Assembly (NCBI RefSeq): GCF_000963865.1
Contig: NZ_CP011071.1
Coordinates: 872,501 to 936,500, forward strand
From: Flagellimonas lutaonensis
GTDB taxonomy: Bacteria; Bacteroidota; Bacteroidia; Flavobacteriales; Flavobacteriaceae
DNA length: 64,000 nucleotides
Reading direction: 5' to 3'
Part shown: positions 4,527-62,797 of the stretch, in pieces
Position numbering within the stretch: the stretch's first letter is position 1
Layout of the letters: the number at the start of each line of letters is the position of its first letter
The notes under the pieces: generated by a model
The model's input: only the letters and a program-made list of their open reading frames with translations
The model's database searches: none
Told to the model about the DNA's origin: nothing
Translations under genes and position numbers: made by a program

Positions 4527-7500
4527 ATGAAAAGAAAATTACCCCTCCTCTTCTTGGTGGCCGTGTCTTGTTCGTACGCCCAGTTCAATAAGAACGCTCC
4601 CTGGATGAAAGAACTGAAAAGAACCAACCCAAACACCTCTCTTTCAAAAGGCGCAACTGACAATAGCGGTGACACCTATACCTTCTATGAGATTACGGAG
4701 GTCTTTGACACGTATTGGAAAGCTAAAGACAAAAATGCCAAGGGCAGTGGTTACAAACCTTTTATGCGGTGGCGCAATTATTGGCAGCACTTCGTAAAGG
4801 CCGACGGTACTTTGCCCACTTCAAAAGAGCTTTGGCAAGCCTACAAAAACAAACAAACCGCAAAGGGCCCTGTGAACCCCACGAGCAACTGGACCCCTCT
4901 GGGACCAGTGGTCAGCAATGAGTTGGGGGGCTCACTGCCCGGTATTGGACGAATAAATGCCATCGCGGTAGATCCCAACAACGCCGACATTTGGTATGCC
5001 GGTGCCCCAGCAGGCGGCATTTGGAAATCTACGGACGCCGGTGATACGTGGACAAATATTTTTGACCAGTTTCCACAAATAGGGGTTTCCGGTATAGCCA
5101 TTGACCCGAACGACTCAAACATCATCTACATTGCAACGGGCGATGATGACGCCTCAGACTCATACAGCGCGGGGGTCTTTAAATCTATCGATGGCGGGTT
5201 AACTTGGAACGAAACGGGCCTTAGTCCCGATACCCAAGATGAGTTTGACACTATGAACGAAATTGTAATCGACCCAACCGATTCAAACGTTGTTTGGGTA
5301 GGCACTACCGATGGTCTTCAAAAATCAGAAGATGCGGGGGCTACTTGGGAAGTGAAGTTGACCGGCAATATCACCGATTTTAAATTGAAACCGGGAGACC
5401 CAAATACTATCTACGCGGTTGATTCCAATTCTTATTTTAGGTCTACCGATGGAGGCAACACCTTCGAAGAAATAACAAGTGTTTTGCCCACCAATGGGGG
5501 GCGAATGGTTTTGGGAGTTTCACCCGACGACCCTGCCGTGGTGTATGTGTTGGTAGCTGACGTTACGGCAAGAAGCTCAGCTTTCTTGGGACTGTTCAAA
5601 TCTACCGATAGTGGGGCTACCTTTACCCAAACGGGAAATACAGAAGACATTTTTGAATCGAACCAAGCTTGGTTCGATTTGGCAATAGAGGTCTCACCCA
5701 CAAATGCAGATGAAGTATACACTGGATGCCTAAATATTTGGAAAAGTACAGACGGGGGCGATTCGTTCTCCAAAGTAAACAATTGGAGCACAAACAACAG
5801 TGCCTATACCCATGCCGACATTCACACTTTGAAGTTTTTTGATGGCAAGCTTTTCTGTGGCAGCGATGGGGGCCTCTTCGTATCGGAAGATGGCGGCGGC
5901 AGCTTTACCGATAAGTCCGATGGTTTGGCCGTTACCCAATTTTACCGTATTGGTATCGCCAAGAACGATGCCAGCAAAATTGTTGGGGGCACACAAGACA
6001 ACTCAGGGTTTGTCTACAACAATAACGAATGGAATGTGTATACCGGAGGGGATGGCATGGACTACGAAATAGACCCATCTAATAGTAATATTGCTTACGG
6101 ATTCCTTCAATTTGGCAACCCCTTGTACATAACTACCGACCTTGGCCAGACGGTTGGCACAATCGCTTCCCCTGACACTGGGTCTGGCCCGATTTCCGGC
6201 AATTGGATCACCCCCTTGGCCGTTGATGGCGAGGGCACCGTTTATGCAGCGTACACCGCTGTTTTCAGATTAACGGGAAGTGAATGGGAAAGGGTATCAG
6301 ATTTTTTCAATGGCAACAATATTGATGACCTTGAAATTGACCCCAATGACCCCAACATCATGTACGCCGCAGAAAATGACGTGCTGTACCGCAGTGGTGA
6401 CCGTGGTGAAAACTTTGTGGCCATTGACACCTTGGGTACACAGATTTCAGATATAGCCATTAACAACAACAATAGTAACATCGTCTATGTGACCACCTCG
6501 GCCAGAGTTGGCCGATCACAAAGTCAACAGCCCCAAAATAGAGCGGTTTACCGTATTACAGTAGATGGCAACACATTGGTCTCTACCGAGAATATTACGT
6601 TTGACCTACCAACAGACCAAGCCTATTTTGCCATTGTACATCAGCCAAGAAATGACAACAATCCCATTTTTGTGGGCACAAGTCTTGGCGTTTATCGGCT
6701 TGATGATTCCTTGACAGAATGGGAACAATACTCTACCAATCTGCCCAATACGGCCATCAGCGATCTTGAAATCAGCCCAGACGATGAGATGTTGGTGGCG
6801 AGCACCTACGGCCGAGGGGCATGGCAAACACCTATACCAGTGCAGCTGCCGGCAGATGATATAAAACTGGTTTCTATAGAGGCCGTTTCGGGCACAGTAA
6901 CCTGCGCTGAAATAACCCCACAGATTACGGTGGAAAACAAAGGTTTAAATGCCATTTCACAGGTCGATGTCACCTACAGGCTAAACGAGGGAGGTAATCA
7001 AACATTCACATTCAATGGCACCATTGATAGTGGAGCTACCGAGACCTTTAGTTTGCCCACCCTCACACCGGCAGTGGGTCAAAGTTCTATTCTAACTGTA
7101 ACTGTCTCTATTGCCAATGATGCCTTTGATGACAACAACACAAAAAAAACCACATTGTTCATTGCCAATTCGTTTGCAAATGGTGACCAAGTGTTCGACT
7201 TTGAGACTGAAGCCACTTCTCTCTTTACGTATGACCTGGTGGGTGGCTCACCCGCCGTTTCTGGAGGTGTTTGGGAAAGAGGGGTGCCCACTGGCACACT
7301 ATTGAATACCGCTAGTTCCGGCACCCAAGTACTGGGCACTAACCTTGATGGCAACCACCCAGACCAAACAGTAGGTGTAATCTACAGTGGATGCTACGAC
7401 CTTTCTACCATATTGGCCCCCAAACTGAGTTTTCAAATGGCATTCGACCTAGAACAAGACTGGGACATCGTGTATGTGGTCTACTCTACCGATAATTTTG

Positions 7501-9579: not shown

Positions 9580-10182
9580 TTGGGTGGATTAAAGCGTTTT
9601 TATCGATTTTTGGAAGAAGCCGGCACCGACGAGGCCGGCCGTGGTTGCTTGGCAGGGCCGGTAACCGCCGCGGCCATTGTATTGCCTCCCGACTTTAAAA
9701 ATTCTTTCCTTACAGATTCAAAACAGTTGACCGAACACAAACGTGAGTTGTTGCGCCCAATTTTGGAAGAACAGGCCCCGTCTTTTGGGGTAAGCCACGT
9801 TTTTCCTGATGAGATTGACGAAATCAACATCTTGAACGCCTCCATCAGGGCCATGCACCGGGCATTGGACCAATTGGATTGCCCCGTCAAGTTTATTATC
9901 GTGGATGGCAACCGGTTCAAGCCCTATGGCAATATCCCGTTCGAATGTATCATAAAGGGCGATGGAAAATACCTGAGTATCGCCGGTGCCTCTGTTTTGG
10001 CGAAAACCTATCGGGACGCCTACATGCGACAATTGCATGAAGAGTACCCCATGTACAATTGGGCCCAAAACAAAGGCTACCCTACAAAAGAACATCGTGA
10101 GGCCATTAAAAAATATGGGTTGACAAAATATCACCGAAAAAGTTTCAAACAGCTACCCACCCAATTGAAACTTGATGTCTAA
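9580..10182 (+). CDS. rnhB: Ribonuclease HII
   Basis: RNase HII removes ribonucleotides from RNA-DNA hybrids and misincorporated ribonucleotides in DNA, acting in the cytoplasm. The 200-residue protein has the signature TDEAGRG (catalytic D17, E18), FIIVDGNRF (D109) and [17 protein letters not shown] (D128), and ends with a basic tail. The in-frame stop at 9562-9564 and the lack of any ATG before the catalytic motif leave TTG at 9580 as the best start, 5 bp after the lipoprotein stop. Co-transcription with the two genes upstream is likely. Confidence 0.95.
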
Positions 10183-60187: not shown

Positions 60188-62797
60188 TCAATCTGAACCT
60201 ATTTCGGTTTGTGAACTTGTACGTGTCCTAAATTCCTTAGAGATAGAAATCAGTGAACCATCAGCACTCATGCCCTCAACATATAGCAGCAGTTCTTCTT
60301 GATTTTTAATGGGTACGGTTACTGAAGTTGGAATATCAGCACCCACCGAAATATTGGCCTTCCAATCCAAAGCTCCATACTTTTTAAATACCGAGCTTGT
60401 ATAATCAGCATAATTAGGCGTAAAGTATTCTTGGGGTTGTGCATAACCTTTTTCAATCAAGAACTTCGCAAACTTATTCCTATTCTCTGGTAATTCATAG
60501 TGGTTAGATCGCAGAATTATATTGACATAGACTTTTTTATCTACGTCATAATAAATAGCTTGAACACTTGAGAGGGGCATATTGAGAAGACCTATATTCA
60601 CAGAAACAGGCACATTGGATTTAGGAGAAAGCAACATCTCAAAAGGAAAACCATCTGCATCCAACCCCATAGACCTTTTATATCCCAAGGTCATCAGATA
60701 ACTTAGAACACTATTGTATCTTTTGATTTCTTCATCACCGATTATCCTGCCTTAAGATATTGGCAAAAGACTACTTTTAGGTATAAACATATCTGTTTTA
60801 TTTGTATTAACTGACTTATCCACTACTGTTACCTCCTCCAGAACAATAATTCGTTCCCCAATATTCAAAGATTGGTCGATTATCTCTTCTGTACCCACAT
60901 CTTCTTGTCTGTTTAAAACTTTCCATGTCAACCAATTTTTGGTATCATCGATAGCCTTTACATTTTCGGACAACTGAACCTCAACCTCTGGTTTTCTTAG
61001 TTTTCCTTTCTTACCTATTAAAGTTATTCCCAACGAATCGCCTTCAAAAAGAACCATATTTCCTGCAAAGGATTTATCGTTACCAAGTTCTTCAAATTGC
61101 ATGGCCGCTGAAAAATCAGTCGTAAAATACACTTGGTTTTCCTCATTCAAATCCGCATCGATTACTTTGCCTTGGAATGAGATTCCGTTTTCCATTTCAA
61201 AATCCATTTTTGCTTTTTGCAACTTTTTTGAATCCCAATCGTATCTTCCCCAACCTTCTATGAGCAAACGATTGTCCAGCTCAAAACGCTTTTTTCTGTC
61301 TTGGTTTTCAAAAAAATAACGATCCTCAAAATAGGTTTTGATATAGGGTTGGAGAAGAAATGAGGTGATGATGGAATTGTCGGGGGTGTAGGATAAACTT
61401 TGACCGGGGAGAGCGGATATACTTACATTGATTTCATTTTGGATAGCCTTTGGCAATATTAAATCGATTTGAATTGAATCACCAAAAGCTGTCAAACAAT
61501 GATCAATTTTTAAATCCGTCAACCTTGTTTCATTATGTCTATGGTTAAAGAACATTCTATAGGCTATGGGTTTCTGTTCTTGGTCAAAGAGTACTGCAGT
61601 GAGGATGCCAAAAGGCAATTGCTCACGCCGCAATGAAATGACCGGTTCATCAGGATTGATTTCAGCATTTTCAAAATGAATGAATTCATCCCTGTATATG
61701 GCTATGGAATAACTTTTGTCGTCTTTAGCATTGAAAGTCGCCTTTGATGCCACCAACTTCACTAGTATTTGGTCTTGACCATTATTATCTATACTCAAAC
61801 CAATTTGATTCTTGACAGCTTCTGGAAGTGCAATCGTAACCATTGAACCGTCTGGCCTCTGCAATTTCAAAAAATAGCGTTTACCATTTTCGATCATCAA
61901 TCCTGTTTTGCCCATACCCAAGGCATTGGTGGTGATATTGCTCCGTATAAGCTTGCCTGTCTCATCAACCAATGTGATATTATCGACCGATACCTCCTGA
62001 CCTACATCATCTTTAACTAATATTCCAATATGATTATAAGCCCCTGAAATCAAATGTCCCCCCTCTGGATAGGATGTTATACTTATGCCGCCATTTGAAT
62101 CATCTTCATGTGTAATATCATCTTTTAGAACGGTTATATTTTGCCGAAAGGGCTCTAAGTTTTTAAAGTTTCGCATGTAGTTAGTCCACGCCAGCAGCGT
62201 ATACTCCGTATCGGCCAAAGTGGAATCAATGGCAAAATCGCCTCTGGCCATACCATTCTCAACATAGAACAAGTTGTGCTTGATAACTTTACCTTCTTTA
62301 TTGTAGATAGCTACGTGATGTGGCACAATACCTTCGGTCGCTCAGGCCGTTTGCCTACGGCAAAACTCCCTCCTGAGCTATTGTGCCACATCGGCCAGGC
62401 AGTACGACTGCATATTCGCTATATTTAACATTGAAACCATAATCGGGCCATTCGCTCCTCACTGAAGGCACTGTGCACATCAAGGGGCTATAGCGAATAT
62501 GCGTCTAATGGCGACCCCTAGCTAATGCAAGCTACGCTTGCAACGCTACTCGCCATAGCCGCCTGGCCGGAGATTCGTAGTCGAAAAAGACGGTATCTTT
62601 GCTTTTTGATTCTGTACGTATGCTGCAAACCATAACCGTTCACCCTTTGTAAAAGTGGTTTTGTTAATATGCAGGTGGATGTTCTCCCAAACTTCAGAAA
62701 TGGAATCTTGCCGTACATTTTTTTGCCCTAAAACAGCATATAAACATGACGTTACAAGAAAAAACGAGAGAAGGAGTCTTTTCATATAGGTGGTCAT
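60188..62797 (-). pseudogene. MG2-type outer-membrane protein gene, disrupted
   Basis: Three pieces on the minus strand read as one protein of roughly 785 residues. The 5' piece (62797 down to 62571) has a signal peptide (MKRLLLSFFLVTSCLYAV, after an ATG at 62797) and WENIHLHINKTTFTKGERLW, the start of Bacteroidota MG2-domain proteins. The middle piece (62317-60755) begins HVAIYNKEGKVIKHNLF and carries the beta-rich core. The last piece (60751-60188) begins GRIIGDEEIKRYNSVL, is in the same frame, and ends KGYAQPQEYFTPNYADYTSS, SVFKKYGALDWKANISVG, the family C-terminus. Lesions are a 253-bp insertion between the Leu and His codons of TTNL/HVAIY (62318-62570) and one in-frame TAA at 60752-60754. 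Related intact proteins help export or energise outer-membrane transport. It lies between the two der direct repeats. Confidence 0.8.
62318..62570. mobile_element. 253-bp insertion made of two palindromic modules
   Basis: The insertion splits the codon series TTN-L | H-VAIY of the MG2-type gene; its ends coincide with palindrome ends. Module 1 (62318-62391) has 13-bp arms ATGTGGCACAATA/TATTGTGCCACAT, then GCTCAGG/CCTGAGC and TTTGCC-TAC-GGCAAA inside. Module 2 (62392-62569) has arms CGGCCAGGC/GCCTGGCCG, then GCATATTCGCTATA (62410-62423) with TATAGCGAATATGC (62489-62502), and a side hairpin TGCAAGC-TAC-GCTTGCA. It encodes no protein. It could be a MITE-like or palindromic repeat mobilised in trans, or a structured RNA element. 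No target duplication was seen. Confidence 0.75.

Follow-up and report, generated by a model that had tools for sequence, protein, structure and literature searches.

A palindromic insert in a Flagellimonas lutaonensis gene as a probable gene-less integron cassette outside its array

The window analyzed here, a 64,000-nt stretch of the Flagellimonas lutaonensis chromosome (Flavobacteriaceae; one contig of 3.27 Mb), contains a gene that is split by a short, palindromic sequence, raising the question of what this sequence is and what put it there. Our analysis makes it very probable that the insert is an integron cassette that has a complete attC site but no gene, and that it was placed off-array, at an attI-like sequence within the gene, by an integron-type recombinase acting in trans. 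The features of the locus are listed in Table 1.

Table 1. Features of the interrupted locus (positions in the window)
Feature	Position	Strand	Evidence or remark
Inserted element, putative gene-less integron cassette, 252 bp	62318..62569	+	A cassette array contains two further full copies, 252 bp without a mismatch and with both ends shared
Putative R' half of attC, ATGTGGCACAATA, preceded by G	62318..62330	+	Perfect complement of 62379-62391; pairing kept through both-side changes in relatives
Cassette interior without a gene, 48 bp; small hairpin GTTTGCC-TAC-GGCAAAAC	62331..62378	+	
Putative R'' half of attC, TATTGTGCCACAT	62379..62391	+	
Putative folded body (L''...L') of the long attC, 178 bp; outer arms CGGCCAGGC / GCCTGGCCG	62392..62569	+	Fold, covariation
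Inner arms of the attC body; side hairpin	62410-62423 / 62489-62502; 62508-62556	+	
Interrupted gene, 5' part, ends ...FSTTNL	62570..62797	-	
Interrupted gene, 3' part, starts HVAIYNKEG..., to the second in-frame stop	60752..62317	-	
attI-like target ATTGTAGATAGCTACGTG, insertion after the last G	62300..62317	+	Scores 12.5 bits against a matrix built from eight attI sites

The initial annotation described a 253-bp insert (62318-62570) with exact gene borders. Its start and the exactness of its borders stood, and its end moved by one base: the other full copies agree with the insert for 252 bases and not for 253, which assigns G62570 to the gene (codon CTC of ...TTNL). Joining the flanks gives AAT CTC|CAC GTA, which reads ...TTNL-HVAIYNKEG.... 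The protein encoded once the insert is removed aligns through the join with homologues in relatives (38% over query residues 3-145 in one genome, G001, and 40% over residues 34-137 in another, G008). No target duplication was found at the insertion (flanks ACGTG and GAGAT). The insert was said to have no coding capacity, and indeed all three gene-strand frames contain stops and there is no long ORF; since 252 is a multiple of 3, the frame of the gene is kept across the insert, though several stop codons interrupt it. The gene has a further lesion, an in-frame stop at 60749-60754 (...SSLLPIS*GRIIGDEE...), which indicates that its decay goes beyond the insertion.

The two identical full copies lie at positions 149582 and 150865 of the same chromosome. 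A partial copy at 157688 (L008:13688-13901) spans bases 1-214 and breaks off immediately ahead of an IS3-type transposase pair. The chromosome also contains two diverged copies (3190798 and 2674857) and one fragment (174222). Several copies thus share exact ends, as expected by the initial annotation for a non-autonomous element moved in trans, and such movement may be presumed; neither fusion to the same gene in all relatives nor an exclusively ragged set of copies was observed. In the cassette preceding the partial copy, a DNA cytosine methyltransferase-like gene accompanies one for a helix-turn-helix protein.

Outside this genome, the core pattern occurs 20 times in Pseudozobellia thermophila DSM 19858, in copies about 70% identical to the element that lie mostly between short genes of the same direction. 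A pattern scan of an 84,980-species genome collection, from which the window genome's own records were possibly left out, found the close type in P. thermophila only. Among the 397 family genomes scanned, one further genome (G198) holds more distant relatives. Its copies (L123; G198:C3:491025 and 492739) have a third, more diverged long attC (GCCACGCAGTACGACTGCACATCCGCC...) in another genus.

All the inverted-repeat arms initially noted are present, namely the 13-bp arms, the inner 14-bp arms and the 9-bp outer arms (62392-62400/62561-62569), and TAC loops were found in both of the abutting modules. The fold of the insert (-112 kcal/mol) is far more stable than that of shuffled sequences (-72.4 +/- 4.1 kcal/mol; z = -9.6; 0/200). 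The two modules had been taken for palindromes of an unrecognised family, a view that gave way to an R'/R'' pair with the folded body of an integron attC. Bases 62-74 of the element complement its first 13 bases and are directly followed by the 178-bp palindromic body, whose end reads ...GGCCG. As judged from sequence, the two modules are one attC, with the arms of module 1 as R' and R'' and module 2 as L''...L', and this assignment makes the element a putative gene-less integron cassette. It is the linear reading of the cassette that places R' and R'' at opposite ends of a 74-bp stretch; between R'' and R', L''...L' forms an imperfect palindrome that can fold as a single strand.

An alignment of ten copies showed strong covariation in this fold. 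Thirteen of its 59 pairs have changed on both sides, compared with 3.9 +/- 1.5 in shuffles (0/500 reach 13) and at most 2 in structures slid along the alignment; six of the 13 lie in the R'/R'' helix. The helices are kept in 95-100% of the alignment cells, a percentage that is favored more than the both-side changes by the drawing of the structure from one of the aligned sequences.

The gene units in the arrays have the build of an integron cassette attC (R''-L''-L'-R'). They start with G^TTR and end in a structured stretch: the first 9-10 bases recur as the reverse complement just after the gene (for example GTTGTAACAC / GTGTTACAAC, GTTGGCTACA / TGTAGCCAAC and GTTAGGCAC / GTGCCTAAC), and this R'' is followed by two imperfectly complementary arms and, usually, by ...CC^. 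The gene cassettes next to the element copies also have G^TTR. The element does not match the core G^TTRRRY / RYYYAAC, having G^ATGTGG / CCACATC instead. Since a GAT core is reported to be tolerated in secondary-site reactions (PMC10127599), the AT core counts against a textbook cassette but not against the mechanism.

The element was found at attI-like sites and at cassette junctions. In P. thermophila it is the first cassette at three attI-like sites; sites directly followed by the element include GTTGCATATATTTACGTG^ATGG and GTTGTATCTATTTATGTG^ATGG in that species and ACTGCACCTATTTAGGTG^ATGTGG in the window's genome. Along contig C34 of P. thermophila, the element and gene cassettes alternate over about 10 kb. 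This alternation, together with a gene cassette that follows one off-array copy (L009), would suit a mobile unit composed of a gene plus the element, of which the 252 bp would be the long 3' end (attC) and the window copy a remnant that has lost its gene. We consider this unlikely: the gene cassettes have a matched R'/R'' pair and attC arms of their own ahead of the element, the element likewise has a matched pair, and the window copy has both exact ends but no gene. A gene-gene junction that lacks the element also occurs (rcL034 13177), so that the alternation is a strong tendency and not a rule. The off-array copy in question (L009:7799-8779) consists of a diverged element and, after it, a single gene cassette (GTTAGGCA...TGCCTAAC); it lies behind a thioredoxin-like gene and is perhaps a second off-array insertion, in which an element and a gene moved together.

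The insertion in the window lies outside any array. It follows the G of GTG, as at attI; the next bases of the empty site are GAG, unlike attI, so that the empty site is G^GAG and not G^TT or G^AT. The 18 bp upstream resemble attI: on a matrix built from eight attI-like sites, with the window site left out, only 2 of 127,460 positions on both strands of the emptied window reach 12.5 bits or more, and the target itself is one of them. Because these 18 bp are attI-like, off-array (attG-type) insertion is the best reading. Two other off-array copies in the genome scored 2.0 bits (L010) and -8.9 bits (L009); with the former low and the latter not attI-like, attI likeness is no rule for off-array targets.

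Sites of the attG type have the consensus G followed by WT. Off-array cassette insertion at attG sites has been described, as cited in PMC12901181 (Loot et al. 2024, reference 57), and PMC10127599 gives the consensus as GNT. Like these insertions, the element is a chromosomal cassette outside attI and attC that follows a G. Unlike them, its target resembles the attI of its own family over 18 bp and has no AT or TT next, the recombinase is of another type, and the case is a genome observation as opposed to an experiment. The odd palindrome would then be a cassette out of its array and would exemplify, in a natural genome, the off-array insertion described recently.

The same borders bear on a MITE or other derivative of an insertion sequence (IS110, or IS200/IS605 with REP-like palindromes) that depends on a transposase with a preference for attC sites. 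Such an origin would account for an element that is short, palindromic, non-coding and present in several copies with no target duplication, and the third array copy has an IS110-type gene at a distance of 4 kb. The ends, ATGTGGCAC... and ...CTGGCCG, are not complementary and no duplication is seen (ACGTG / GAGAT), arguments that leave untouched those IS families that lack these features. The ends obey the rules of cassettes, the left target is attI-like, and a non-exhaustive search of IS110 and IS200/IS605 ends revealed no related transposon end. Transposons (MITE, REP-like or IS110) were rejected on these grounds, having neither inverted ends nor a duplication to support them and cassette-type ends in their place, and we regard an origin of this kind as highly improbable.

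A gene for a tyrosine recombinase was found on the minus strand at G000:C1:2566838-2567770, about 1.6 Mb from the insert. The integron of the window's chromosome is complete: besides this gene, it comprises an attI-like site, about 290 bp away from the gene start, and about ten chained cassettes (L063). This array contains 9 matched GTT pairs, compared with a shuffle mean of 0.9, and 0/100 shuffles reach 9. The array that holds the element copies has a duplicate of the attI region and no recombinase in the stretch read. Two copies of the attI region, which includes a long AT-rich palindrome (TTTTGTATATA...TATATACAAAA), are present in the genome (L063, about 9890-10055; L008, about 5420-5580), the L008 copy having cassettes but no recombinase nearby.

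The recombinase shares features with two groups. Its scores were 213 of 220 bits for XerA (NF040815) and 196 of 265 bits for IntI (TIGR02249), both below the cut-offs. Like canonical IntI (VchIntIA, PDB 2a3v; TIGR02249), it is a tyrosine recombinase next to an attI and an array, and VchIntIA was the top structural match of its predicted fold, a supporting observation only, since the AlphaFold model is of moderate quality (pLDDT 78, pTM 0.53). Unlike canonical IntI, it has only 70 residues between KG.KDR and H.LRH, about 40 fewer than VchIntIA; the IntI-specific additional domain was absent from it and from the 29 relatives measured. It resembles XerA/XerC-type recombinases (NF040815, PDB 5hxy, 4a8e) in domain make-up and length and in its best NCBIfam score, but, unlike these, adjoins attI-like sites and cassette arrays.

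Recombinases at least 65% identical to it occur in 12 of the 249 family genomes, including the window's own. All 12 have an attI-like site at the same place, with G^TTR directly after it or, where the element comes next in P. thermophila, G^AT; chained cassettes are visible in nine of the 12 within the sequence examined. Canonical IntI (TIGR02249 above the cut-off) was found in 0/12 of these genomes. A canonical IntI elsewhere in the genome was rejected as the mover, none scoring above the cut-off. The mover is likely an integron-type tyrosine recombinase instead of the transposase or reverse transcriptase that the initial annotation suggested looking for.

In weighing the cassette reading, we counted in its favor the copies with exact ends, the R'/R'' complement, the covariation, the interleaving with gene cassettes, the attI-like target, the recombinase with its array and the flanks that restore the gene. 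Against it we counted the G^GAG empty site, the AT start (versus TT in gene cassettes), a recombinase that lacks the additional domain reported as necessary, and the L009 and L010 scores. For a single-stranded cassette, we propose that the long attC would fold with module 2 as its body, and that circularization would bring the arms of module 1 together as R'' and R', the junction of the excised circle being GCCTGGCCG-ATGTGGCACA. The integron-type recombinase, encoded about 1.6 Mb away, would then insert the cassette in trans after a G. The cassette would normally reside at attI or at a junction between cassettes; in this case it would have entered an attI-like sequence within a gene and broken the gene. 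We infer both the single-strand recombination and this recombinase as its agent.

All 7 scanned P. thermophila copies have terminator-like hairpins on both strands and a promoter-like pair, TGCACA-18-TATATT, on the sense strand. Terminator-like sites numbered 23, compared with 8.1 in shuffles, and 14 of the 23 came from the element; promoter-like sites overall showed no clear excess (41 versus 31.1 +/- 5.9). A terminator-like hairpin also occupies the place of the 48-bp interior in diverged copies as well as in P. thermophila. Neither a sigma-70-type promoter nor a terminator was detected in the window copy, and we therefore make no promoter or terminator claim for it. In P. thermophila, where the relatives of the element precede most gene cassettes, they may reset transcription between cassettes, a hypothesis suggested by these motifs; any effect of the cassette on expression is likewise presumed. 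The hairpins and the promoter-like pair in all seven copies would also be expected if ordinary recombination had duplicated a fixed element, regulatory or RNA, made up of a terminator and a promoter. We find this explanation very hard to credit: the window copy has no such signals and yet moved, no known RNA family was matched (nothing below E = 0.9 in an RNA family search with the element), and an exact-ended insertion inside an unrelated gene requires a mover.

Gene-less cassettes themselves have precedents. Those of Vibrio superintegrons have experimentally shown promoter activity (PMC11014356), and ORF-less integron cassettes were reported from the oral metagenome (PMC6557892). Like these, the element is short and has an attC but no gene, and the P. 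thermophila copies carry promoter-like signals before gene cassettes. Unlike these, it has a much longer attC (178-bp body) and AT in place of TT as its first base pair; a single family precedes most gene cassettes, with terminator-like hairpins, a Flavobacteriaceae host and copies outside arrays. The element itself would be known in kind and new as a variant of the gene-less integron cassette.

The system appears more surprising than the element, in that cassette arrays adjoin recombinases lacking a domain held necessary for integron recombination (Messier and Roy 2001, as cited in PMC9668308). Recombinase homologues (E <= 1e-40), which may include proteins of other roles, were found in 158 of the 249 genomes, and the attC arm AACAATGTATAACCGCAATTACGG, with one mismatch allowed, in 110 of the 249 Flavobacteriaceae genomes, compared with none for the reversed control. 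The 18 wider-group recombinases measured also lack the additional domain. In five genomes that were read, an array begins about 50-110 bp past the stop codon of the recombinase and runs in the same direction. Matched pairs in these arrays number as many as 18, compared with a mean of 2.4 and a maximum of 6 in shuffles, and three of the five arrays exceed every shuffle. The short-flank arrays (L064, L108-L110, L112-L115, L126 and L128) were individually non-significant in shuffle tests.

A survey of complete genomes reported a complete integron in one Bacteroidetes species outside Chlorobi/Ignavibacteriae, Salinibacter ruber (PMC9024848). Our literature search, which covered few subscription papers and no preprints, turned up no description of a Flavobacteriaceae integron with a recombinase of this kind, and the novelty of this part is provisional. 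We give even chances to the broader proposal that integrons are common and largely unrecognised in Flavobacteriaceae, that their recombinases recombine a folded attC despite lacking the additional domain, and that one gene-less family is a mobile transcription-reset unit that jumps into genes at attI-like sites. If these recombinases work, direct tests of what the additional domain does become possible, and a large environmental reservoir escapes standard integron searches.

The long arrays that follow recombinases without the additional domain in the same direction (L126-L130, from G060, G185, G190, G113 and G201, respectively) differ in arrangement from the window's genome, in which the recombinase and the array diverge. 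Close to the recombinase genes of this clade, a sequence resembling GATATACAAAAT is found repeatedly; it may be an operator.
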